DNA from: a virus
Reading direction: 5' to 3' (one strand)
IMG/VR virus record: IMGVR_UViG_3300010400_000013
Location: 1 to 42,500 of that record
Length of the DNA stretch: 42,500 bases
The translations under genes and the position numbers were made by a program. Below the pieces are notes generated by a model that saw only the letters and a list, made by a program, of their open reading frames with translations, was not told where the DNA came from and ran no database searches. Shown in pieces: positions 124-42,500 of this stretch (the stretch's first letter is position 1; the number at the start of each line of letters is the position of its first letter).

Positions 124-1191
124 TTTCAAGAGCAAGAGATGATGGCGCGGACAGGACTTGCCCATCGCATGGCGATCATTGATCAAGAGCAAGCCTTCGG
201 GATTAAGACGGAGCAGGAGGCAGGGCTGGCTCGTCAAGCCGCACTGGCACAAATGGATGTCTTCACAGATACCAGCCTCAAGAGGCAACTCGAAAACTAT
301 CGGCGATTCATTAAGGCGAAAGAAGCCTTATTCACCGAAGACGACAAGGGACAGGCCGAATTGGCGAAATTTCGAGAAGAAGCGGCGACGAAAGAATCGA
401 AGATGATTGCCGATATTAGCGCACAGACGATTCAGGCCGATACGACGAGGATTCAATCGGGTCTCCAAGTCAAAACTTTCTGGACGAAGCAGTTACAAGA
501 TATTGTAGCCAGCAATGCCTTCTCCGTCTCCACGATTATTACGACATGGACCAGTGGCCTGGCGAATGCCATCGTGAACGGGGGAGATTTCATGCAAGCC
601 GCATGGAAGCAGACGCAAGTGGCGATCATCCAGGGGGGGCTGAATCTCGTTGTTCAATCACTGGCACAGGACGCCTTGAAAGTCGCGTCATCGGAAGCTG
701 CCGCTGCTACGACCACGGCTGTGTGGGCTGGCGCAACCACTGCGATCTCTGGATTCTTCGCCGCCACAAGCGCCGCCTTTACCGCCATGATGGCGAATAT
801 GGTGGTAGTGGTGACGGCGGTGGGTGAATTCATCATGGGTGTGCTGACGGCCATTGGTGAGGCCCTCGGCTTTACAGGTTTTGGCGCACCGCTCGCTGGC
901 GCGGTCTTGGCTGGAGTGGCATTGATTGCAGTGGCCCTTGCCGCAACCGGCAACCTCGGCTTTAAGGAGGGCGGCATTGGAGACTTTGGCAGCGGCACGC
1001 CCGCGATGTTGCATGGACCGGAAGCGATCATCCCGCTGAATGGACGCGGCGCGGGCTTCATGCGTGAGGCGTTCGGCGGCGGCGACGGTCAGATCATTCA
1101 TACCCATGTCTATCTCGATGGCCGACAGATCGCGAAGGCGACGGCCAGGCATACGGGCGAGGCGTGGCGATCTGCAGGAGTTCCTGCATAA
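1..1191 (+). CDS. Tail tape measure protein, C-terminal part
   Basis: This is the C-terminal 396 residues of the tape measure protein whose N-terminus begins at 41427. Across the circular join the protein is about 713 residues, with the codon phase preserved. It sets tail length and is threaded inside the tail tube. The first ~150 residues here are helical and rich in Gln, Glu and Lys. A long hydrophobic Ala/Val/Gly region follows (about 210-310), typical of membrane-active tape measure segments. The C-terminus ends in a short conserved-looking motif (HVYLDGRQIAKATARH) common at tape-measure ends. The stop overlaps the next start by one base (TAATG). Confidence 0.9.
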   Translation: MTRTPAANDVRAQLPTMIDTQKESSRQQAFIDAQLKRSEGLFQEQEMMARTGLAHRMAIIDQEQAFGIKTEQEAGLARQAALAQMDVFTDTSLKRQLENYRRFIKAKEALFTEDDKGQAELAKFREEAATKESKMIADISAQTIQADTTRIQSGLQVKTFWTKQLQDIVASNAFSVSTIITTWTSGLANAIVNGGDFMQAAWKQTQVAIIQGGLNLVVQSLAQDALKVASSEAAAATTTAVWAGATTAISGFFAATSAAFTAMMANMVVVVTAVGEFIMGVLTAIGEALGFTGFGAPLAGAVLAGVALIAVALAATGNLGFKEGGIGDFGSGTPAMLHGPEAIIPLNGRGAGFMREAFGGGDGQIIHTHVYLDGRQIAKATARHTGEAWRSAGVPA

Positions 1192-5334: not shown

Positions 5335-5547
5335 ATGGTCTGCCTGCGTTGTGACGGCTTCATCTGCTCCGAGCGCTTGAATAAATATGGGAAGTGGTGT
5401 TGGCGCTGCGTCAACTGTGGCGACCGCGTCGATGCCGTGATTCTGAGGCACCGAGCTGAACAGGAAGCCGAGGCAGCGGCCAGACGCATTGATCAGGATC
5501 AGGATCTGAAGGAATGGGCGAACTGGTTTGCGAGGGTGCCTGCCTAG
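5335..5547 (+). CDS. Small zinc-ribbon protein
   Basis: A 70-residue protein with CLRC near the N-terminus and a WRCVNCG knuckle about 18 residues later, forming a four-Cys zinc ribbon. A DAVILRHR helix and a charged tail follow. The WRCxxCGxxxDxVI pattern resembles small proteins I recall from Nitrospira genomes; this is memory, not a search. It starts directly after the lipoprotein stop. Its TAG shares a CTAG palindrome with the stop of the convergent minus-strand gene. Confidence 0.6.
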   Translation: MVCLRCDGFICSERLNKYGKWCWRCVNCGDRVDAVILRHRAEQEAEAAARRIDQDQDLKEWANWFARVPA

Positions 5548-6161
5548 CGAGCTAGCCGTCGTCGTACCGCGATCATCACTCCAAGACCGACAGCCACTAA
5601 GGCGAGTGAACTGGTCTCCGGCACATTCGCGCTCGGCTGGCTCACCGATCCACTCAATGCTCCACTGGTAAAGATCGTCACTGGCACACAGATCGGGCAG
5701 GGCACGCGATAGACGGCCTCTCGCAGGGTGCCCCATTCACTGATATCAGCGGGCGGGGTGACAAGTGGTGTCGGATCAGTCATCTGAAACGTGATCTGCA
5801 TCAGCAAATTCTGATCGTTCTTGAAAATGAGATTCGTAGTATCACCAGCAGAAAACACGCAATTCCCCAAGCAGAACTCAGCGGTATTGCCAGCCAGCCC
5901 ACTCGCAAAGGTCGTGGAGGGCAGGACGAACTCGGTTGCCGTCACGGTGAAATCCCATGCAGTCAAGGCATAGATGGCATTATTGGCCAGCCCGCGCACA
6001 TTCAAGGCGGTGGGGCCTTCCGCATTGTCATAAGTAAAGGACCCTGACGCAATCCCACTGCCGCCAAAGCTGCCGATAAACTCTAGACTGACCGGCGTAG
6101 CGAGCGCAAATGCCGGTAGACTCAGCCAGACGAAGAGCACGAAGACTCCAAGCGCTTTCAT
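5544..6161 (-). CDS. Secreted protein with PEP-CTERM-like sorting signal
   Basis: A 205-residue protein. The start is fixed by a strong ribosome binding site (GGAGGTGG) just upstream on the minus strand; longer versions of the frame have none. It has an N-terminal signal peptide (hydrophobic core, then LPAFALA). The body is a beta-rich domain with Cys pairs (CLGNC, CPIC). The C-terminus is VPET, a hydrophobic helix, then RRR, which is the layout of PEP-CTERM signals cut by exosortase (canonical VPEP). The protein is thus expected at the surface or in the matrix of the lysogen. It is a probable moron gene in the lysogeny block. Confidence 0.75.
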   Translation of the reverse strand: MKALGVFVLFVWLSLPAFALATPVSLEFIGSFGGSGIASGSFTYDNAEGPTALNVRGLANNAIYALTAWDFTVTATEFVLPSTTFASGLAGNTAEFCLGNCVFSAGDTTNLIFKNDQNLLMQITFQMTDPTPLVTPPADISEWGTLREAVYRVPCPICVPVTIFTSGALSGSVSQPSANVPETSSLALVAVGLGVMIAVRRRLAR

Positions 6162-6222: not shown

Positions 6223-6609
6223 CTACGGAAGAGGGGGTCGCTTCACAATCTCTCGCGTCGTCCAATCCCCCAGCCGCCAGACCGACTCATTTCTGACAAG
6301 GAATGTAAAGGGTTTTTCGCCGGCATAGCCGCCCATGCGATTCTTCGCATTGATCCTCACATTGACGAGATAGCCGAATTGAGGAGCCTGGAAGTCACCG
6401 TTGATATAAGCGTAGCCCCTGGTGGGTTCACCGAGATAACGGTAGCGTGCTGATTCAGGATCATAGAAAAGCGGGAACATATGCGCCTGAATGTGCTCTT
6501 TATAGGCTGGACTGAGCTGCCCATACTCAGCATGGGATATCTGTTCAGGTGTGGGGATGGTGGCACAGGCGCTCAGTAGCAGCATGGCCACGGCGAGACT
6601 CCATTTCAT
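6223..6609 (-). CDS. Lipoprotein, unknown function
   Basis: A 128-residue protein with a lipobox (LLLSAC) after a short hydrophobic signal, preceded by GAGGAGGG. The mature part includes DPESARYRYLG, a YGYLVNVRINAKNR..GGY motif and a terminal Pro-rich end. I recall this pattern from small lipoproteins found in bacteria and prophages, with no defined function. It is co-oriented with the integrase and the PEP-CTERM gene, so it may be expressed in the lysogen. A superinfection-exclusion or envelope role is possible but unproven. Confidence 0.65.
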   Translation of the reverse strand: MKWSLAVAMLLLSACATIPTPEQISHAEYGQLSPAYKEHIQAHMFPLFYDPESARYRYLGEPTRGYAYINGDFQAPQFGYLVNVRINAKNRMGGYAGEKPFTFLVRNESVWRLGDWTTREIVKRPPLP

Positions 6610-6623
6610 GATGCCCTCCTCGG

Positions 6624-7565
6624 TTAATCCTTATTGGGCGGCAATCCTAACATTCGCCTACTGTTCAGTTCCAAGGCTCGACTGACGGGCGACACATTTA
6701 ATCGCGCATAGATCGCCGTATGCTGGAGCCCACTATGGTTGAGCACGTTCCCGATGATCGCCAGATTTTCCCCATGACAAGCCAGCCAGCTCGCGCACGT
6801 CCGTCGCAAATCGTGAATTGTGAGATCGGGCATCCCTGCTAGCGAACGGATCAGATCCCATCGCTCAAAGGCTAATGAGGTGGACCAATGCCCGCGTTCG
6901 GTCGCAAAGACAAAGGCATTCGTGCGTGGTAAGCCATTAAGCCGTTGCATGAGGATGAATGGAATGGGCACCGTTTGAGCGCGATCCGTCTTGGTATGGG
7001 GTTTATGCCAGAGTCCCCCGTCAATGTCGAGATCGCACCAGCGCATCGTCAAACCTTCAGTCCGCCGACAGCCCACTAACAGGCAGAGGAGGAAATAGCA
7101 TTGAGTCGGCTCATCCTGTTCACGAATCGCGTCCATCAACTTCGGCATTTCATGCGGCTGGACGAAGCGTTTCCGGGAGTGCTCCCGATATTTCTTGATG
7201 CGCGCTGCCGGGTTCTCGCCAATATAGATGCGCCAGTCGTGAGCTTTGCCAAACATCGTCCGCAGGATGGAGAGGCACTTATTCCCCATGCTTGGTGAGG
7301 TCTGACCGATCTGATGGAACCATTCTTCGATTTGAATCGGGGTGAGCTGATCGAGTCGGCTGGCCATCAAGGGGCCGAAATATCGGCGGATCGTCCCGGC
7401 CATTTCGCGGCCAATGGACAATTGCGCCACATGATTCCTGAGATAGAGCGGAATGAACGCCTCCATGTCAGCCTCCGAATCAGGAAGGAGGCTAAGTGAT
7501 TCGGCTGTGGCTTGGCTACCCCTCGCGAGGGTTACAGAGTCATGCGTAATCTGTATGCCTGTCAT
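6624..7565 (-). CDS. int: Tyrosine recombinase integrase
   Basis: A 313-residue site-specific recombinase that would integrate and excise the phage genome. The core-binding domain spans about residues 35-125 and the catalytic domain about 140-300. Catalytic residues are visible: Arg167 (GCRRTEG), Lys192 (HTKTD), His251 and Arg254 (HDLRRT), His277 (LNHSG) and Tyr286 (IYARL). It has no obvious long arm-binding domain. The ribosome binding site at the annotated start is weak, so a downstream start (such as the Met at residue 34) is possible. No attachment core could be recognised next to it. Confidence 0.93.
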   Translation of the reverse strand: MTGIQITHDSVTLARGSQATAESLSLLPDSEADMEAFIPLYLRNHVAQLSIGREMAGTIRRYFGPLMASRLDQLTPIQIEEWFHQIGQTSPSMGNKCLSILRTMFGKAHDWRIYIGENPAARIKKYREHSRKRFVQPHEMPKLMDAIREQDEPTQCYFLLCLLVGCRRTEGLTMRWCDLDIDGGLWHKPHTKTDRAQTVPIPFILMQRLNGLPRTNAFVFATERGHWSTSLAFERWDLIRSLAGMPDLTIHDLRRTCASWLACHGENLAIIGNVLNHSGLQHTAIYARLNVSPVSRALELNSRRMLGLPPNKD

Positions 7566-7651
7566 CGTTGCGCCTACGTAAACTACCTGCGTCCTGTTTG
7601 TTCTGACTCAGACTGTTTACCGACCGAACCGTCAGGCCCCCAAAATCTCCC

Positions 7652-7858
7652 CTATCCAGCGGTGCGTCGTCGCTTGCTTGGGCCAAGCTGAATAGGGCTT
7701 GTCATTCCTTCCATGCGTTCCACCTTCTCTAGCACGGCATCCTCCACGAATCGGCTTCGGCTCGTGCGGCGCAGGCTGGCTCGCGCCTGCTCCATACGTT
7801 CATAGAGCGTCGGCTCCATATAGCTGCGCACGGGTACTAATCGCGTCGATGGCATCAT
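7652..7858 (-). CDS. Ribbon-helix-helix regulator, candidate repressor
   Basis: A 68-residue protein (two adjacent ATGs) behind a perfect AAGGAGGTGA. The N-terminal VPVRSYMEP strand, a TLYERMEQARASLR helix, a turn, and a SRSRFVEDAVLEKVER helix match the Arc/CopG ribbon-helix-helix layout. The tail is basic (SKRRRT). It is transcribed divergently from the early operon and lies next to the integrase, the usual place for an immunity repressor. Paired GTAGGCTAC-type operators occur in its own leader and in the opposing promoter, suggesting autoregulation and repression of the early genes. Function is inferred from fold and context. Confidence 0.65.
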   Translation of the reverse strand: MMPSTRLVPVRSYMEPTLYERMEQARASLRRTSRSRFVEDAVLEKVERMEGMTSPIQLGPSKRRRTAG

Positions 7859-7879
7859 ATCTCACCTCCTTTCCTAGAA

Positions 7880-7898
7880 GTAGGCTACATTAGGCTAC
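7880..7898. promoter_or_regulatory. Tandem operator pair in the minus-strand leader
   Basis: GTAGGCTAC (7880-7888) is a perfect odd palindrome. TTAGGCTAC (7890-7898) follows with its centre 10 bp away, one DNA turn. The pair sits just downstream of the minus-strand -10 box and upstream of the ribosome binding site of the 7652-7858 gene. Ribbon-helix-helix repressors characteristically bind tandem sites on one DNA face. Confidence 0.6.
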
Positions 7899-7927
7899 AG
7901 TCTAACTACTCCGGCCTACCACGTCAA
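7899..7927 (-). promoter_or_regulatory. Leftward sigma70-type promoter
   Basis: On the minus strand TTGACG (7922-7927) is separated by 17 bp from TAGACT (7899-7904). Transcription would start about 7892, inside the operator pair, and run into the ribbon-helix-helix gene and possibly the integrase. Confidence 0.55.
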
Positions 7928-7991
7928 GCCTCTTCCATGCCTCTTAAGTATTACGTAGAACACCTCGCTAAAAATATATTTTGCGGCCTAC

Positions 7992-8020
7992 TTGACAAGT
8001 AGGCTACTTAGGGCTACAGT
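7992..8020 (+). promoter_or_regulatory. Rightward early promoter
   Basis: A perfect -35 box TTGACA (7992-7997) is followed after 17 bp by TACAGT (8015-8020). The operator pair 7999-8017 fills the spacer and overlaps the -10 box, so a bound repressor would block RNA polymerase. It drives the operon that starts at 8051. An AT-rich tract (7968-7983) lies just upstream. Confidence 0.65.
7999..8017. promoter_or_regulatory. Tandem operator pair in the early promoter
   Basis: GTAGGCTAC (7999-8007) is followed by TAGGGCTAC (8009-8017), again with centres 10 bp apart. The wider AGTAGGCTAC...CTACAGT block matches the one at 7879-7901. A further pair of CGGCCTAC sequences lies at 7912-7919 and 7984-7991. 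Confidence 0.6.
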
Positions 8021-8050
8021 GTGCCCACGTTAAGACTATGGAGGGTTACA

Positions 8051-8218
8051 ATGAATCTGTCGAACCCGAAAACCTACCGCTTCAAATGCAGACAGGAAGC
8101 CTGGTTGCAGCGCCGAGCCAATCGAGATGGACACGGCAACAAGGCCATTGTCCTGCGATTACTTATTGACCGTGCGATGCAAGAAGAAAAGCAAAACGGG
8201 AAAACGCAAGCCGCCTAA
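8051..8218 (+). CDS. Second small ribbon-helix-helix-like protein (Cro-like position)
   Basis: A 55-residue basic protein, the first gene of the rightward operon, with GGAGGG upstream of the ATG. The pattern is TYRFKCR (strand), QEAWLQRRANRDG (helix) and NKAIVLRLLIDRAMQEE (helix), which fits a ribbon-helix-helix fold. Its place opposite the 7652-7858 regulator is that of Cro opposite CI, or of Arc and Mnt in P22. It may compete for the same operators. The fold is read by eye. Confidence 0.55.
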   Translation: MNLSNPKTYRFKCRQEAWLQRRANRDGHGNKAIVLRLLIDRAMQEEKQNGKTQAA

Positions 8219-9136: not shown

Positions 9137-9290
9137 CGTGAATGTCTGGCGATTGGCCAAACTTTTCGCGCTGGAGCATGACTTGACCGATGAGGAAATC
9201 GCGAAACTCTCACAGCACATCCAAGATGAGATCGAATCGGAAATAGAAAACATTGTGTTCTTCCGAAAGGAGCCGAAGGTTCATGGTTGA
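9126..9290 (+). CDS. Small helical acidic protein, unknown
   Basis: A 54-residue protein whose ATG lies inside the end of the previous gene. It is mostly helical, with NVWRLAKLFALEHDLTDEEI and then a Glu-rich helix (DEIESEIENIVFF). The next gene, an exonuclease, starts before this one ends, so the two are coupled. Confidence 0.5.
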   Translation: MPYDVNVWRLAKLFALEHDLTDEEIAKLSQHIQDEIESEIENIVFFRKEPKVHG

Positions 9291-10140
9291 GAATCCGGGC
9301 CTCTATTCCATGCCCCTTACTGACTACATCGCGGACCCATGTCCAGAGCCGTCGCTGTCGGCGAGCGTGGCGCACAAACTCATTACCGAATCGCCGATCC
9401 ATTCGTTTATCTATCACCCGCGCCTCAATCCTGGTGGAGCGCGTGAGGAATCGAACAAGATGGATCTGGGCACGATCTGTCACGGGATTCTGCTTGAGGG
9501 GGACGAGAGCCGTTTGGTGATCATCGAAGCCGACGACTATCGAACCAAAGTAGCACAGGAGACGCGGGACAGTGCGCGAGCGGCAGGGCTGGTGCCTGTG
9601 CTCGCGGGCAAGATGGGACAGATTCATGAAATTGTGAATGCGGCGAAGTCGGCGATCGCGAACAGCGAACTGGGTTCAGCCTTTACGAAAGACGCGGGCC
9701 AGGCTGAGCAAACGATGGTCTGGAAAGAAGGCGAGATCTGGATGCGATCGCGCCCGGACTGGCTCACCAACGACCGGCGCTTGATCTGCGACTATAAAAC
9801 CACGGCGGGGAGTGCGGAGCCCAATGCCTGGATGCGAGGGCCACTGCTGTCGAATGGTTGCGACCTTCAAGCTGTCATTGGATTGCGAGGACTCAGGAAA
9901 CTATTCAACGCGAGAGATCCGCAATTCGTCTTTATGGTGCAGGAGCAGGAGCCGCCATATGCGATGTCGTTCGTCGGACTCTCGCCCGCATTCCTCGAAA
10001 TGGCCGAACATAAGCTAGCAAGAGCCATGCGGCTCTGGGGCGATTGCACCTTAACAAATACCTGGCCGAGCTATTCATCGCGTGTGGCTTGGGTAGAACC
10101 GCCAGCATGGGCCTATACCGAAGAGGAGATGAAAGCATGA
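9283..10140 (+). CDS. PD-(D/E)XK exonuclease, RecE-like
   Basis: A 285-residue nuclease of the RecE/YqaJ-like type. The active-site pattern is visible: a GTICH segment (His67), RSRPDW (Asp159) and DYKTT (Asp170, Lys172). The ATG at 9283 follows an AAGGAG; upstream in-frame starts lack one. It would resect double-stranded DNA to give single strands for annealing by a phage recombinase. The adjacent ATPase gene overlaps it by 4 bases, a typical recombination pair. Confidence 0.8.
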   Translation: MVENPGLYSMPLTDYIADPCPEPSLSASVAHKLITESPIHSFIYHPRLNPGGAREESNKMDLGTICHGILLEGDESRLVIIEADDYRTKVAQETRDSARAAGLVPVLAGKMGQIHEIVNAAKSAIANSELGSAFTKDAGQAEQTMVWKEGEIWMRSRPDWLTNDRRLICDYKTTAGSAEPNAWMRGPLLSNGCDLQAVIGLRGLRKLFNARDPQFVFMVQEQEPPYAMSFVGLSPAFLEMAEHKLARAMRLWGDCTLTNTWPSYSSRVAWVEPPAWAYTEEEMKA

Positions 10141-11117
10141 GTTATCAATTTCGTCCCGCCGTTCGAACCAATACCCCGCTGATCATTGGCCTCGCGGGTC
10201 CCACGAAGTCAGGCAAGACCATGAGCGCTTTGCGATTGGCCACCGGCATGGCGAACGGCGGCATTATTGCGATGATCAATGCCGAGGGGCCACGCGGACA
10301 CCAATATGCGGATAAGTTCGAATATGTCGCTTGTGAACTAACCGCCCCTTATCGACCGGACAAATATACTGAAGCACTCGAAGCAGCGAAGGCCGCGAAT
10401 CCTGCGGTGATCATCATCGATAGCATCTCGCATTGCCATGACGGGCCAGGCGGCATCCTCGAATGGCATGAGGAAATCCTCGATAAGATCGCAGGCAATG
10501 ATTACAAACAACGGGAAAAATCGACGTTCGTTGCCTGGGTTAAACCGAAGGCCTCAGAGAATCAATTGATCTATACCATGCTGGAGATGAAATGCCCAGT
10601 GATCCTCTGTATGAGAGCGAAAGAGAAGATCAAGATTGTGACAGGGAAGCCGATCATTGATCTGGGTTGGCAGCCCATCGTCGGCGAGCGCATTGCCTTT
10701 GAAACGATCTTTACTCTCATGTTCGTCCCGCATTCGAAGGGCGTCCCGGAACTGGAATTGTCCGATATGCGCGAGCCGTTCGATACGCTAGTTCCTAAAG
10801 GCAAGCCGATTGATGAAGCGCTTGGCAAGCTCTTGGCTGAGTGGTCGGCAGGTGGACGATCGAAACATTTCACCGCGCCAGCACAAACCACGAATGGCCA
10901 GCAGAAAATGAGCGAAGGCGAGACGGCCTCTCAAGAACAATTGAACATCGCTCAAGATCCCTCAGAACCATACAAGGCCAAACTCTATACCTGCGAGCGC
11001 ACCAAGCAGGCTATCACCGACACCTATAATGCTATCCCTGATTATATTCGGCAAGATTGCTTCCAGGAATATCAGAAGCAATTGCGCTCGCTCGATTACA
11101 AACCGGCAACCGTCTAA
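10137..11117 (+). CDS. RecA-fold ATPase, Sak4-like recombinase candidate
   Basis: A 326-residue protein with Walker A GPTKSGKT (residues 21-28) and Walker B VIIIDSIS at about residue 96. The core (~1-235) looks like the AAA_24/Sak4-type phage NTPase family, and the C-terminal ~90 residues are a Gln/Ser-rich linker and a helical tail. With the exonuclease immediately upstream (ATGA overlap), the likely role is single-strand annealing or strand exchange during phage recombination. The family call is from motif pattern only. Confidence 0.72.
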   Translation: MSYQFRPAVRTNTPLIIGLAGPTKSGKTMSALRLATGMANGGIIAMINAEGPRGHQYADKFEYVACELTAPYRPDKYTEALEAAKAANPAVIIIDSISHCHDGPGGILEWHEEILDKIAGNDYKQREKSTFVAWVKPKASENQLIYTMLEMKCPVILCMRAKEKIKIVTGKPIIDLGWQPIVGERIAFETIFTLMFVPHSKGVPELELSDMREPFDTLVPKGKPIDEALGKLLAEWSAGGRSKHFTAPAQTTNGQQKMSEGETASQEQLNIAQDPSEPYKAKLYTCERTKQAITDTYNAIPDYIRQDCFQEYQKQLRSLDYKPATV

Positions 11118-12654: not shown

Positions 12655-12965
12655 CGCAACTCACCTTAACCGACGCCTGCACCGCCGATGCCTTGAAACG
12701 AGAAGGCCGGGATGCCATTGAGCAGACTGATCGCGCCTTCATCGTCACGATGCGCGGGATTGCGAAACGGATCAGCCAAGAATCGGGATTCGTCTCGATC
12801 GACAATCTGCGTGTGCATGCCGATCGTATGGGCTGGCAGCCGAAGCATCCGAATAGTTGGGGGTCAGTAATGAAAGGCAAGGGCTGGACGATCATCCGCT
12901 ATCAGAAGTCGGCACTGCCGAGCAATCATGCACGACTCATCGCCGTCTGGAAATGGGAGCCATGA
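12651..12965 (+). CDS. Small phage protein, winged-helix-like
   Basis: A 104-residue protein with an ATGA overlap. The middle reads FVSIDNLRVHADRMGWQPKHPNSWGSVM, which resembles a small phage family (VxxDxLR...HPNxWGxxF) that I recall near replication genes and that probably adopts a winged-helix fold. The next gene encodes a HerA-like ATPase and overlaps by 4 bases. Confidence 0.55.
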   Translation: MTQLTLTDACTADALKREGRDAIEQTDRAFIVTMRGIAKRISQESGFVSIDNLRVHADRMGWQPKHPNSWGSVMKGKGWTIIRYQKSALPSNHARLIAVWKWEP

Positions 12966-14677
12966 GCAAACTGCATCTGTCTACTGATCTCTCTGTCCCC
13001 ATCGATGCCTGTACGCAGACCTTCGCCTGGATCGGGCGCAAGGGTTCTGGGAAGACCTATGGTGCAGGCAAACTCGTTGAGGAGCTAATGGACCACGATG
13101 TCCAGGTTGTGATTCTAGATACGGTAGGAAATTGGTACGGCTTGCGTCTCTCTTCTGATGGCAAACCCACGGGCTATGAAATCCCGGTCTTTGGGGGACT
13201 CAGGCAGGATCTGCCATTACTCGCGACGGCCGGTGAGGTCGTGGCCGATGTGGTCATTGACAGCCAACGGAGCGTCATTCTCGACGTGAGCCAATTCAAT
13301 TTTTCTGAACGGAAACGCTTTGCCGCCGACTTCGGGACGCGCCTCTGGCAGCGGAAAAAAGGCGAATCGCAACCGTCTCCCCTCCATCTCATCATTGAGG
13401 AATGCCAGTTGATCGTGCCACAGTTCGTCGGCAAAGACGATACGCGCATGGTGCATGTCTATGAGGAGATCATTCGGCTCGGGAGAAATTACGGTATCGG
13501 TATCTCCATGCTCACCCAGCGTCCCCAGTCGGTGAATAAGGAAGTCTTGACACAAGCCGAATGCATCATGGCCTTTCAATTGAACGGGGTCCCTGAACGC
13601 AAGGCCCTGAAGGATTGGCTCACCTATGAAGGCGGGGATGTCAATCTGGTCAATGAGCTGCCAGGCCTCGCGGTAGGCACTTGCTATCTCTGGTCTCCGC
13701 AATGGCTACATAAGTTCGAGAAAATCACCATCGCCAAAAAGACAACCTTCGATGCGAGCGCGACACCGAAGATGGGCGCGAAAACCATTCGCAGAGATCC
13801 GGCACCACTCGATGTGAAAGATATCGAAGCTCGCATGGTGTCGACCATCGAGAAGGCCAAAGCCGACGATCCGCGCCTGCTCAAGCAGGAGATTGCGAAG
13901 CTAAAAGCGGAACTGCAACGGACGCCCGTTGCTGCGATTCCACCATCCAAGGTCAAGGAAGTCCCGGTACTCAAAGGCAAGCAGCTCGCACAATTGGAGA
14001 CCTTTTGCACCAAACTGATGCGCGAAGCGGAACGGCATGGCAGCGCGATGTCCATCTTTTGGAGCAATCTGAATCAGGTGGCGGAGTCGCTACTGAAGGC
14101 GATCAAGTCAGTCTCGCAAGAGCGGTCGGTTGTGGCCGTGACGTCTCACCGGGATACCAGGATGATCCAGGCACCGATGCATATTCATAGGCAGGAGTCT
14201 ATCTCAGACGCCGAGATCGGCAAGAGCGGTCTTCGACGCATGCTCGTTGCGCTCGCGCAGAGATCTGTCGGACTGACGAAACGGCAACTCGGCGTCCGGG
14301 CTGGACTCTCCTCACAAACGGGGACGTTTTCGACCTATCTCTCCAAGGCCAAGAGTAATGGCTGGATGGCGGAGCAGGCTGGCGTCCTGGTCATTACGGA
14401 GAAGGGCCTTGCCGCGCTCGGCGACTATGCGCCACTACCGGCAGGTAAAGACCTCTTATTGTATTGGCTCTCAGAATTGGGGGAGAGTGGCGCCGGCCGC
14501 ATGCTGCACGTCCTGTCAAAGGTCTACCCCAGTACCATGACAAAAGAACGCCTCGGCGTAGAGGCGAATCTCTCGCCGACGACCGGCACGTTTTCCACCT
14601 ATCTCAGCAAACTGCGGGCGCTCCAACTCATCGAAGGGAGCCGAGAGATTCGGGCCAGCGAGGAATTATTTCTATGA
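12962..14677 (+). CDS. HerA-like ATPase with duplicated winged-helix C-terminus
   Basis: A 571-residue P-loop ATPase of the HerA/FtsK-like group. Walker A is GRKGSGKT (residues 25-32) and Walker B is LHLIIEE (141-147). A following LGRNYGIGISMLTQRPQ segment is typical of the sensor region in this group. Residues ~290-390 form a charged linker. The C-terminus holds two similar winged-helix repeats (~423-484 and ~510-571) that share the string TGTFSTYLSK. It is probably a DNA translocase or helicase working with the nuclease genes upstream. The start is the ATG in the ATGA overlap. Confidence 0.72.
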   Translation: MSKLHLSTDLSVPIDACTQTFAWIGRKGSGKTYGAGKLVEELMDHDVQVVILDTVGNWYGLRLSSDGKPTGYEIPVFGGLRQDLPLLATAGEVVADVVIDSQRSVILDVSQFNFSERKRFAADFGTRLWQRKKGESQPSPLHLIIEECQLIVPQFVGKDDTRMVHVYEEIIRLGRNYGIGISMLTQRPQSVNKEVLTQAECIMAFQLNGVPERKALKDWLTYEGGDVNLVNELPGLAVGTCYLWSPQWLHKFEKITIAKKTTFDASATPKMGAKTIRRDPAPLDVKDIEARMVSTIEKAKADDPRLLKQEIAKLKAELQRTPVAAIPPSKVKEVPVLKGKQLAQLETFCTKLMREAERHGSAMSIFWSNLNQVAESLLKAIKSVSQERSVVAVTSHRDTRMIQAPMHIHRQESISDAEIGKSGLRRMLVALAQRSVGLTKRQLGVRAGLSSQTGTFSTYLSKAKSNGWMAEQAGVLVITEKGLAALGDYAPLPAGKDLLLYWLSELGESGAGRMLHVLSKVYPSTMTKERLGVEANLSPTTGTFSTYLSKLRALQLIEGSREIRASEELFL

Positions 14678-15123: not shown

Positions 15124-15327
15124 ATGAACGTGACAGATAAAGAAGCGAGCAGTGTTATTGAGTTCACGAGAAGATTGGTGAAAGGGAAAATGGATGTAGA
15201 GAAGTTGTCGTATCGGCAAATGTCGCTGTTGTGTGAGGTATCACCAGCCGCCATTTGTCGTTTCCTTCAGGGGCGCATGATCGATGCAGTGACTTTTCTG
15301 AAGTTTTGTGCATGGATACGACCATGA
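15124..15327 (+). CDS. Small helix-turn-helix protein
   Basis: A 67-residue protein behind a G6 ribosome binding site. The C-terminal part reads YRQMSLLCEVSPAAICRFLQG, an XRE-type helix-turn-helix, followed by TFLKFCAWI, typical of very small phage HTH proteins. It probably binds DNA as a regulator. It lies in the cassette array rather than in the switch region. Confidence 0.65.
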   Translation: MNVTDKEASSVIEFTRRLVKGKMDVEKLSYRQMSLLCEVSPAAICRFLQGRMIDAVTFLKFCAWIRP

Positions 15328-15369: not shown

Positions 15370-15630
15370 ATGACTGAGAAAGTGTATCCTGTTGAGAATT
15401 GGCCCGCTGCGCATTTTGTAGCCGAGGAACTAGAGGCGCGAGGGGTGTCAATCACCGCTTATTTGAGACTCATTGGAATGGACGAGAAGCGGTGGATGGA
15501 TCTCGTGAATGGGCAGAAAAGCATGCTCTTGAGCGAGGTACAACGGATTGCTGGATCGCTGAATGTCCAGCCTGAGTTTATCGCTAATTTGAACCTACGA
15601 TATGGACAATGGAAAAGGATGCAGCGGTGA
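15370..15630 (+). CDS. HigA-like helix-turn-helix protein, no toxin partner
   Basis: An 86-residue protein with GGAGGG before the ATG. The arrangement AAHFVAEELEARGVS, then a helix-turn-helix (YLRLIGMDEKRWMDLVNG), then QRIAGSLNVQPEFIANLNLRY matches HigA/XRE antitoxin-like proteins. No HigB-like toxin gene is adjacent; the neighbours are an HTH protein and a 42-residue protein. It may act as a regulator or an orphan antitoxin. Confidence 0.65.
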   Translation: MTEKVYPVENWPAAHFVAEELEARGVSITAYLRLIGMDEKRWMDLVNGQKSMLLSEVQRIAGSLNVQPEFIANLNLRYGQWKRMQR

Positions 15631-21484: not shown

Positions 21485-21931
21485 ATGGCACGACCAGCGC
21501 GAGCCGGGAACGGCAATGCACTGGCTAAGCGTCTGCAGGTCTCACGTCAGCGCGTCAGTCAGATGAAGAAGGCAGGCAAAGTGCTGTTCAAACCGCGAAG
21601 CCGGGAGATCGATGAAGACGCGACGGCGCGTATGCATCAGGAGCGGTTGGCGGTGCAGCAAGCCAGCCCATCTCGGCAGATCCGAGATCACTATGATGCG
21701 AAAATGGCGAAGCTGCAATATGAACGGGCGATCGGACTGGTGGTCGACATTGACAAGGTCAAGAAGGCGACATTTGAGGCGGGCAGGCGCGTGCGAGACA
21801 ATCTGGAAAATCTGCCGGCGCGGCTCAGTGGGATTTTTGCCGCCGAGCGGGATCAGCAGAAAATCTTCGCCTTGTTCACGAAGGAAATCCATAATTGCTT
21901 GGAAGGATTGACGCATGCCGGTAGCCGTTGA
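21485..21931 (+). CDS. Terminase small subunit
   Basis: A 148-residue protein with AGGAGG upstream of the ATG. An N-terminal helix-turn-helix (ALAKRLQVSRQRVSQMKKAG) would bind the packaging site, as in Nu1-type small terminases. A charged helical middle and a C-terminal part (FALFTKEIHNCLEGL) follow. It overlaps the large subunit start by 17 bases. The identity rests on the helix-turn-helix and the location. Confidence 0.7.
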   Translation: MARPARAGNGNALAKRLQVSRQRVSQMKKAGKVLFKPRSREIDEDATARMHQERLAVQQASPSRQIRDHYDAKMAKLQYERAIGLVVDIDKVKKATFEAGRRVRDNLENLPARLSGIFAAERDQQKIFALFTKEIHNCLEGLTHAGSR

Positions 21932-23819
21932 TGAAGCCGCCTTTGTTGAAGCGTCCTTCCTGGCCGGGCTCCGGCCCGATCCGCTGCAGACCATCGCGCA
22001 ATGGGCCGACGAGCATATGTTGCTGCCGAGCTGGTCCGCAGAACCAGGCCGCTGGCGCACCGATCGCACGCCCTACTTGCGCGAGATCATGGAATGCTTG
22101 TCACCGTCTTCGCCGGTTCGGCGCGTGGTCTTTATGAAATGCGCGCAAATCGGCGGGACCTCCTGCGGGGCGAACTGGATCGGGTACACAGTCCATCGGG
22201 CTCCCGCGGCCATGCTCATCGTGGAACCGACTGTCGATGTGGCGAAGAAACTCAGCAAGCAGAAGATTCAGCCGATGTTCGATACGGTGCCGGTCCTGCA
22301 CGGACAAGTCAAAGAGGCGCGATCCCGCGACTCCGGGAATACGATTCTGGCCAAGGAATATACCGGCGGCATGCTGGTGTTGACCGGGGCGAATAGCGGC
22401 GTCGGACTCCGGTTCATGTCCGCACAGAACTTGTTTCTGGACGAAGTGGACGCCTACCCCTATGACGTCGACGGCGAAGGCCCGCCCATATCCGTCGCAG
22501 AAAAGCGGGCACTGACCTATGCTCGGCATAAGATTTATATCTGCTCAACGCCAGTGCTCAAGGAAACCAGCGTCATTGAGCCGGAATATGAAGCCAGCGA
22601 TCAGCGGCATTTCTTCGTACCCTGTCCGCACTGCGGAGCCGAGCAATACCTGAAATGGGGGAATCTGAAATGGCCGAAGGAGCAGCCAGAATTGGCCCAG
22701 TATGAGTGCGAGGCATGCCTGGAAGCCATCCCGGAGCATCACAAAACCGCCATGCTGGCGTCTGGCCGGTGGATCGCGACCTATCCTGAACGATCGACCG
22801 CAGGCTTTCATCTGAACGCGCTCTATGCTCCCTATGGCTGGGTCAATTCCTGGGCTTATCTGGCGACGGAATGGACGAAGATCATTCATAAGCGGGATTT
22901 GCGGCAGCAACAGACCTTCACGAATACGAACCTGGCTGAGACGTGGGAAGACAGCGGTGAAAAGTTGGACGTGGTGGGCCTGGCCGGTCGACGCGAGGTC
23001 TATCCCGCGCCCTGCCCGGAGGGGGTCATTGTGCTCACCGGAGCCGTCGACGTGCAGGATGATCGCCTGGAAGTGGAATGCATCGGCTGGGGGCTCGGAG
23101 AGGAATCCTGGTCGATTGATTATCAGCGGTTCTACGGCTCCCCGAGTCAGCCGGATGTCTGGAGGCGGTTGGACGAATGGCGGAAGCAGACCTGGACGCA
23201 TGAATGTGGCGTAGCCATGAAGTTGATCCAGCTCGGGGTCGACACGGGGGGGCATCATGCCAAGGAGGCCTATGCCTTTGTGAAGGCGCGGCAGCGCGAG
23301 CGCGTGTGTGCCATCAAGGGGAGTAATCAACCGGGACATCCCCTAGTCGGGAGGCCTTCAAAGAATAATCTCGGCAAGGTCAATCTCTTCTCGGTCGGCA
23401 CCGATACGGCGAAAGACACGATCTTTGCGCGGCTCAAACTCGAGACGTTTGGGCCAGGTTATTGCCATCATCCGGTCGGCGAGACCTACGACGAGGAATA
23501 TTTCGCGCAGATCACGAGTGAAGAGAAGCGCAAGAAATATGACAAGGGAATTCTGCAGGGGACGTATTACAAAAAGACGAGGGCTCGGAATGAAGCGCTG
23601 GATCTCAAGGTCTACAATCTGGCCGCGTTCGCGATTCTGAACCCGAACATGGCGTCACTCGCTGGCGGATTAGAGCGGCAAGCAGCGTCGATCGCGCATC
23701 AGCAATCTGGCGCAGAGCGGGTCGACAAAGAAGAGGAATCCGACCGCCTCCCCGCGCCTCCCAGCACCCCACGGCAGCATCTACGCAGGCCGCGAGGGTT
23801 TGTGAAAGGATGGCGATGA
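21915..23819 (+). CDS. Terminase large subunit, GpA family
   Basis: A 634-residue packaging motor of the lambda GpA family. The ATPase part shows a Walker A-like region around Lys75 (KCAQIGGTS) and Walker B LFLDEVD (173-179). Four Cys (237, 240, 265, 268) form a zinc knuckle typical of GpA proteins. A TGAVDVQDDRLEVE segment begins the nuclease part, where the Asp is a likely metal ligand. The C-terminus is a Pro/Arg-rich tail. GpA-family terminases usually cut cohesive ends, so cos packaging is the likely mode; no cos site was identified. Confidence 0.93.
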   Translation: MPVAVDEAAFVEASFLAGLRPDPLQTIAQWADEHMLLPSWSAEPGRWRTDRTPYLREIMECLSPSSPVRRVVFMKCAQIGGTSCGANWIGYTVHRAPAAMLIVEPTVDVAKKLSKQKIQPMFDTVPVLHGQVKEARSRDSGNTILAKEYTGGMLVLTGANSGVGLRFMSAQNLFLDEVDAYPYDVDGEGPPISVAEKRALTYARHKIYICSTPVLKETSVIEPEYEASDQRHFFVPCPHCGAEQYLKWGNLKWPKEQPELAQYECEACLEAIPEHHKTAMLASGRWIATYPERSTAGFHLNALYAPYGWVNSWAYLATEWTKIIHKRDLRQQQTFTNTNLAETWEDSGEKLDVVGLAGRREVYPAPCPEGVIVLTGAVDVQDDRLEVECIGWGLGEESWSIDYQRFYGSPSQPDVWRRLDEWRKQTWTHECGVAMKLIQLGVDTGGHHAKEAYAFVKARQRERVCAIKGSNQPGHPLVGRPSKNNLGKVNLFSVGTDTAKDTIFARLKLETFGPGYCHHPVGETYDEEYFAQITSEEKRKKYDKGILQGTYYKKTRARNEALDLKVYNLAAFAILNPNMASLAGGLERQAASIAHQQSGAERVDKEEESDRLPAPPSTPRQHLRRPRGFVKGWR

Positions 23820-41434: not shown

Positions 41435-42500
41435 TATTGGATCGCTGATTATAAAAATCGGGGCCGATGCGAGCGGGCTACAAAAGGCCTTCTCGGATCT
41501 CGGCGGCTCGGCCAAACAGTTTCAGCGTGGCGTCGAGCAGATCGGGAAGTTTGCGGCGACAGCCTTTCTCGGGGCGGCCACGGCTGCCGTGGCCATGACC
41601 ATTGCAGCCGGAAAACAGGCTGAACAGCTTGATCAGCTCTCACAGGTGACTGGCATTAATACCGATAAGCTCCAAGAATATGATGTCGCACTGAATCGTG
41701 CTGGTCTGGATGGCAACGATCTGGCTATGGTCATGAAAGGCGTCTCGCAGAGCTTAGATCAAGCTCGGCAAGGGACTGGAACAGCAGGGGATCGCTTCAG
41801 GCAGCTTGGCATCGATATCCGCACCGTTACCAGCACGGATGATCTCATTCGGAAGATTGTCACGACTTCTGCGAATTTCGCCAATGGATTACAGAAATCC
41901 GCGCTGATGTCTGATCTGCTCGGGAAAAGCTGGCAGACAATCATTAGGACATTTCCATCTGGTGCGAAGGCCTTTGATGACATGGCTGCCGCATCGAGAA
42001 GCCTTGGGGAAACCCTGTCGACCAATCAGATTGCGGTACTCGCGAAAATGGATGACAGCATTGATGACCTCATGACGGCAACGAAGCGCTTTGGTCAACA
42101 GCTCGGTGTCTTTCTCGCGCCCTCAATTGAAATGATTACGCGGCTCCTCACGACCATGCTCTCGTTCGGCTCGCGAGCATTCGTAGCAATCGGAGTGGAG
42201 GCGGATGTCTTTGCAACGAAACTCTTGCATATGGGTTTGCAGATCCAGGAGCTACTCGGGACGGTATTCTCTGGAAATATCTTTTCTGGAGATGCATGGA
42301 AGCAGACATTGGCCAATATCAAATTCATCGGGGAGGAATCAGACAAGCAAATTGCCAAGATTCGCGCTGCCGGAGCACTGACACGCACCCCTGCCGCAAA
42401 CGATGTCAGGGCGCAACTGCCCACCATGATCGATACTCAAAAAGAATCGTCACGGCAGCAGGCCTTCATTGATGCGCAGCTCAAGCGGAGCGAGGGCCTC
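41427..42500 (+). CDS. Tail tape measure protein, N-terminal part
   Basis: The ATG lies inside the end of the chaperone frame. The first 358 residues seen here open with ADIGSLIIKIGADASGLQKAF, typical of tape measure proteins. A helical Ala-rich segment (FAATAFLGAATAAVAMTIAAG) and a TGINTDKLQEYDVALNRAG stretch follow. It runs to the end of the window; through the circular overlap it continues at position 1 and ends at 1191, giving about 713 residues. Confidence 0.9.
   Translation, partial: MADIGSLIIKIGADASGLQKAFSDLGGSAKQFQRGVEQIGKFAATAFLGAATAAVAMTIAAGKQAEQLDQLSQVTGINTDKLQEYDVALNRAGLDGNDLAMVMKGVSQSLDQARQGTGTAGDRFRQLGIDIRTVTSTDDLIRKIVTTSANFANGLQKSALMSDLLGKSWQTIIRTFPSGAKAFDDMAAASRSLGETLSTNQIAVLAKMDDSIDDLMTATKRFGQQLGVFLAPSIEMITRLLTTMLSFGSRAFVAIGVEADVFATKLLHMGLQIQELLGTVFSGNIFSGDAWKQTLANIKFIGEESDKQIAKIRAAGALTRTPAANDVRAQLPTMIDTQKESSRQQAFIDAQLKRSEGL
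42378..42500. repeat. Terminal direct repeat, right copy
   Basis: This copy is identical to 1-123. Base 42378 equals base 1, so 42377 is the last unique base of the circle. Confidence 0.95.

Follow-up and report, generated by a model that had tools for sequence, protein, structure and literature searches.

A conserved divergent gene pair with helically phased operator boxes between the integrase and early genes of a temperate phage: a likely lysogeny switch

The stretch of DNA analysed here, hereafter the window, comprises positions 1 to 42,500 of the IMG/VR virus record IMGVR_UViG_3300010400_000013. Beside its tyrosine integrase gene lie two small open reading frames (ORFs) that face away from each other, one of 68 residues on the minus strand and one of 55 residues on the plus strand, as a first-pass annotation of the window had correctly reported. 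Their products are referred to below as P1 and P2. The two genes are separated by an intergenic spacer of 192 bp (7859-8050), which holds divergent promoters and operator-like repeats; the features are as follows, with conservation given relative to the single related phage described below.

7652-7858, minus strand: P1, the proposed repressor, weakly ribbon-helix-helix (RHH)-like, 68 residues; first gene of the leftward unit running into the integrase
7865-7869, minus strand: Shine-Dalgarno sequence of P1, GGAGG; kept in the relative
7878-7901, no strand assigned: left operator, 24 bp, boxes 1 and 2 (AAGTAGGCTACATTAGGCTACAGT), extending from the edge of the -10 into the P1 leader; 21 of 24 positions the same in the relative
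7899-7927, minus strand: P1 promoter, TTGACG-17-TAGACT; hexamers and spacing the same in the relative
7901-7919, no strand assigned: boxes 3 and 4 (TCTAACTAC, CCGGCCTAC), 11 and 10 bp further on, between the -35 and -10 of the P1 promoter
7992-8020, plus strand: early rightward promoter of P2, TTGACA-17-TACAGT; the relative has TTGACA-17-TACATT
7997-8020, no strand assigned: right operator, 24 bp (AAGTAGGCTACTTAGGGCTACAGT); it occupies the P2 promoter's spacer and -10
8040-8044, plus strand: Shine-Dalgarno sequence of P2, GGAGG; kept in the relative
8051-8218, plus strand: P2, 55 residues; heads the rightward early operon, i.e., in the position of Cro, MOR or Apl

Promoters and phased operator boxes in the spacer

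Both sigma70-type promoters are present exactly as first annotated, and promoter-like sites number four in 1 kb, compared with 0.4 expected. Examination of the spacer reveals two copies of a 24-bp operator, AAGTAGGCTACnnnnGGCTACAGT, of the form AAGTAGGCTAC-nnnn-GGCTACAGT, which lie in the same orientation, each on a promoter, and are identical at 21 of 24 positions. The annotated GTAGGCTAC-like boxes indeed occur at 7880/7890 and 7999/8008, but the left site consists of four boxes rather than a pair, with CTAC at positions 7885, 7895, 7906 and 7916 (i.e., at spacings of 10, 11 and 10 bp). Their placement also differs in part from that first described: the right pair fills the early promoter, whereas the left site is not restricted to the leader of the P1 gene. 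Two of its boxes occupy the -35/-10 spacer and two lie over the -10 edge and the start region, and the array therefore covers not only the leader but also the P1 promoter. The sequence of box 1 is close to a palindrome (AAGTAGGCTACTT in the right operator), and the remaining boxes keep the CTAC half only.

Chance occurrence of the boxes was rejected by shuffle tests. None of 2000 dinucleotide shuffles of the spacer equalled the 21/24 likeness of the two 24-mers (the best reached 19), and the observed number of phased CTAC pairs was reached in none of 5000 shuffles. When the window was scanned with an operator matrix, both sites scored 34-36 bits and nothing further rose above about 12 bits. 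Likewise, neither GGCTAC-N4-GGCTAC nor CTAC-N6-CTAC occurs again in the 42.5 kb. The window thus contains two operators only, and the same holds for the relative.

Conservation in a related phage

One true relative, IMGVR_UViG_3300042874_000230 (31.7 kb), was found by IMG/VR scans with P1, P2, the integrase, both alignments and the operator patterns. The order integrase-P1-P2 is kept in this phage, and P1 (81% identity) and P2 (91%) are the most conserved of all proteins compared, ahead of the integrase (72%) and the tail proteins (42-65%). Third codon positions account for most of the differences between the two phages (29 of 43 in P1 and 27 of 32 in P2), and the ratios of nonsynonymous to synonymous substitution rates (dN/dS), 0.12 for P1 and 0.024 for P2, indicate purifying selection on both genes. 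The third-position bias and the dN/dS values led us to reject the possibility that the two are spurious ORFs.

The regulatory sequences are retained as well. The right promoter together with its operator (7992-8020) is identical at 28 of 29 positions, the left 24-mer at 21 of 24 and the four-box stretch at 36 of 44, compared with 39 of 71 (55%) in the remaining middle of the spacer; promoters and boxes thus range from 82 to 97%. Promoter geometry is identical in the two phages, both promoters having kept their 17-bp spacers. The CTAC boxes of the relative, at 5834, 5844, 5855 and 5865, are spaced as in the window, and the two operators are separated by 119 and 120 bp in the two phages. The comparison is evidence independent of the earlier reading, which had been made from the letters of one genome, and the conserved regulatory switch is real. 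Immunity regions are often the fastest-diverging part between related phages; in these two phages the switch is the most conserved part compared.

Wider searches added no further members. P1 and P2 gave no tblastn matches in 50,697 phage records, nor did P1 in 72,556 plasmids, and profile searches of genome contigs with the P2 and integrase alignments were also without matches. Among 34 contigs carrying TAGGCTAC-N4-GGCTAC and 59 carrying the four-box pattern, all others lack a P1 or P2 homologue and were judged to represent chance or low-complexity tandem repeats. In phage MW202898, which has a distantly related integrase, the gene that precedes the integrase is unrelated in sequence, and this phage was rejected as a carrier of a comparable pair. 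As a separate observation, an unrelated phage contig (L036) bears a run of 10-bp GCTAGGCTAC repeats (542-579, minus strand) with small genes downstream; one product, of 57 residues, appears RHH-like by eye, and the contig may offer a separate, independent example of such an operator arrangement.

Genome context, the two proteins and other candidate regulators

The first and last 123 bases of the record form an exact direct repeat (1-123 = 42378-42500) and the record is therefore a complete genome of about 42.4 kb, terminally redundant or circular, the record itself being classed as linear. A tail gene open at the right end (from 41412) runs on at the left end (49-1191). The genome codes for a lambda-type terminase large subunit, a portal, a capsid/protease, tail proteins and the tyrosine integrase, and its early arm for exonuclease VIII-like, RecA/Sak4-like and replication-initiation-like proteins. 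The phage is complete, temperate and tailed. P1 and P2 lie at the point where its two units part, the P1 side leading to the integrase and the P2 side to the exonuclease, RecA-like and replication genes:

6624-7466, minus strand: tyrosine integrase, downstream of P1; homology to the relative begins at M34, and the frame is open from 7565
9283-11117, plus strand: early genes of the rightward unit, encoding exonuclease VIII-like and AAA (RecA/Sak4-like) proteins

The gap between the integrase and P1 genes (7466-7651) contains conserved non-coding blocks, GTTCTGACTCAG, and AGGCCCCCAAAATCTCCC adjoining the P1 stop, which might be parts of the phage attachment site (attP) or of a terminator. The window contains no transfer RNA genes, and attP could not be located by that route. 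On the other side of the integrase, 6223-6609 (minus strand) codes for a small lipoprotein-like product, 53% identical in the relative and weakly matching the Cor superinfection-exclusion family. Also on that side, between the integrase and the lysis/tail genes, 5544-6161 (minus strand) encodes a PEP-CTERM-type protein with a C-terminal exosortase sorting signal, here in a phage genome. In the early region, a 574-residue ATPase (12953-14677, plus strand) matches terminase-like and Zot-like profiles and may be of the HerA/FtsK type; it is distinct from the true terminase at 21915-23819.

The two proteins had both been annotated as RHH proteins. For P1, residues 17-48 match the Pfam family RHH_1 with 14.0 bits, compared with a cut-off of 20.5 (E 0.05 against all Pfam). 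When all six frames of the genome were searched with RHH_1, P1 was the sole match (E 0.003), and among the NCBIfam families it matches YlcI/YnfO (E 0.01). Five shuffled P1 sequences matched no RHH family. The AlphaFold model, built from an alignment of two sequences, has helices at residues 18-32 and 36-49, an N-terminus without secondary structure and a predicted local distance difference test (pLDDT) score of 66; this predicted helix-helix arrangement is one that an RHH monomer might have. The RHH identity of P1 is thus weakly supported, and we take the protein to be probably of this class.

P2, on the other hand, has no match in Pfam, PHROG or NCBIfam families, excisionases included, and its predicted structure, again derived from two sequences and of low quality (pLDDT 74), is a single long helix (residues 6-53). 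Alternating basic residues (R10, K12 and R14) can be seen by eye before the helical stretch. With the RHH assignment weak for P1 and unsupported for P2, describing both members of the pair as RHH proteins overstates the evidence. The Arc family model (PF03869), which gives about E 1e-30 for Arc and Mnt of P22, has no match in either phage genome. The hhalign comparisons (P1 and Mnt, P2 and Arc, P1 and P2) yielded no alignment of use, an outcome to be expected of two-sequence profiles.

P1 of the relative weakly matches PSK_trans_fac, the family of Rv0623 and VapB-type proteins (E 0.1), which would be in line with an antitoxin of the VapB or ParD type whose operators autoregulate an addiction module, P2 being an unrelated small gene. 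However, there is no adjacent toxin gene, the integrase being the gene that comes after P1 and P2 being transcribed divergently, and the early promoter is covered by this operator as well. We regard an antitoxin as very improbable.

A more substantial alternative concerns P2. If it were an Apl/Cox-like protein, it would be the main binder of the boxes with one monomer per helical turn, would repress both promoters and would direct excision, P1 acting at other places or in some other manner. The position of P2 as the first early gene, its highly basic character and its strong conservation are consistent with such a role, as are the boxes themselves, which are conserved direct repeats at 10, 11 and 10 bp. 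Nevertheless, the absence of a match to any excisionase family argues against it, as does the near-palindrome of box 1, which suits a dimer. No conserved phased CTAC array was seen in the integrase-P1 gap, an expected place for attP sites, or elsewhere, with attP itself not located. On balance, we consider P2 unlikely to play this part.

Six-frame searches were made with the models HTH_3, Peptidase_S24 and HTH_26. None of them matched either phage genome, in contrast to all 14 control genomes, and neither P1 nor P2 has a helix-turn-helix (HTH) match. The only other candidate DNA-binding regulators seen were two ORFs on the plus strand: 15370-15630 (86 residues), with weak matches to HTH_26 (E 0.0025) and the HigA antitoxin (E 0.026), and 15124-15327 (67 residues), which has an HTH-like pattern (HTH_6, E 0.07) and was not picked by the gene caller. 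No HigB-like toxin was recognised among the ORFs neighbouring the former. If one of these ORFs encoded the lysogeny regulator, the P1-P2 pair would be a secondary circuit that sets integrase and early-gene levels, as in P22, where Mnt and Arc lie in a region separate from c2/cro. However, both ORFs sit inside the rightward lytic unit and lack an S24 domain, the relative lacks a counterpart of 15370-15630, and the genome contains no second operator set. A secondary role of the pair is, in our view, clearly unlikely.

The proposed switch and known regulatory systems

The layout found here is that of a genetic switch, with divergent promoters and shared operators beside the integrase and the early operon. 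Because the genome is complete and codes for no CI-type repressor detectable by the HTH_3 or S24 models, the locus is best read as a lysogeny switch, and the region is likely to serve in lysogeny control. The first-pass proposal of a divergent switch of the lysogeny type is thus well supported by the complete temperate genome, by the location at the junction of the integrase and early units, by the lack of a CI match and by the conserved promoters, boxes and genes.

More specifically, we propose that the spacer (7859-8050) governs the lysis-lysogeny decision, P1 being a small and probably RHH repressor that acts on the phased boxes and P2 its lytic counterpart, and we assign to this proposal a probability of about 55%. 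We infer that P1 is the protein that binds and that its binding represses, as well as the role of P2. P1 dimers would bind boxes one helical turn apart, side by side and cooperatively. On the right operator, P1 would obstruct RNA polymerase at the early promoter, such that P2 and then the recombination and replication genes would be turned off. On the four-box left array it would cover its own promoter and limit its own level, and integrase levels would be limited by P1 as well if the two genes are co-transcribed. P2 may be Cro-like, competing for the boxes, or MOR-like, acting on P1.

Several observations weigh against this proposal. Direct repeats at a spacing of 10-11 bp mark Apl-, Cox- and Xis-type proteins equally well; the RHH matches of P1 all fall below the curated cut-offs, and its model is poor; fold searches with that model gave no credible match, the model being too weak for a conclusion; P2 shows no sign of an RHH fold; two weak HTH-like ORFs exist at 15.1-15.6 kb; and there is a single known relative.

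Most of the phage lysogeny switches that have been characterised are based on HTH proteins. In TP901-1, CI and MOR are both such proteins, unlike P1 and P2, although the arrangement is similar, with back-to-back promoters, a divergent repressor and small anti-repressor, and shared operators (PMC7250872). In phage 186, Apl is the product of the first early gene; it binds direct repeats spaced at 10-11 bp between the lytic and lysogenic promoters, represses both and serves in excision (PMC7498355). The layout described here would also fit this scheme, with P2 as Apl. Like Apl, however, phage P2 Cox is an HTH-motif protein, and these two systems have face-to-face promoters and further binding sites at att, as opposed to the back-to-back promoters of the present phage, in which no att array was found.

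P22 Arc/Mnt, which had been named as the nearest parallel, is a fair one in layout. Its immI region contains two very small divergent genes, mnt (83 residues) reading leftward and arc (53 residues) reading rightward at the head of its unit, and the operators lie within promoters that overlap (BK000583). However, immI has two different operators, two Arc-family proteins and a 90-bp spacer and controls ant, whereas here one operator motif serves both promoters and no protein matches the Arc family. Moreover, immI is a secondary immunity region, as opposed to a pair at the junction of the integrase and the early operon. In operator logic, SSV1 F55 (PMC5569661) and phage 186 Apl (PMC7498355) are nearer than Arc/Mnt.

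Among RHH regulators, AvtR of the archaeal lipothrixvirus AFV6 resembles the proposed P1 in that it represses its own gene and controls a neighbouring gene, itself predicted to encode an RHH protein; it differs in having two RHH motifs per chain and in also activating (PMC5569661). In SPbeta, YosL has a predicted Arc-type domain and is linked to induction (PMC10516654). SSV1 F55 is a small RHH repressor that keeps lysogeny via tandem repeats in early promoters and in its own promoter, and RHH-based lysogeny control as such is therefore known (PMC5569661). It is not new, P22 Mnt/Arc and SSV1 F55 having preceded the present case. A literature search of limited scope returned no description of a bacteriophage with an RHH protein as its sole lysogeny repressor. 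The likeness of F55 to P1 is drawn from its description; SSV1 is an archaeal fusellovirus with archaeal promoters, and the portion of the source on which we rely describes no divergent partner (PMC5569661).

If a non-HTH pair is the only operator-bearing regulator at the integrase/early junction, the locus would offer a minimal, testable switch of about 570 bp with two proteins of fewer than 70 residues. We suggest tentatively, at somewhat less than even chance, that the primary lysis-lysogeny decision of this phage is made by an RHH-class repressor and a novel 55-residue partner on phased boxes, in a switch better conserved than the remainder of the genome and with no HTH proteins of the CI/Cro kind, which would make it a bacterial counterpart of SSV1 F55.
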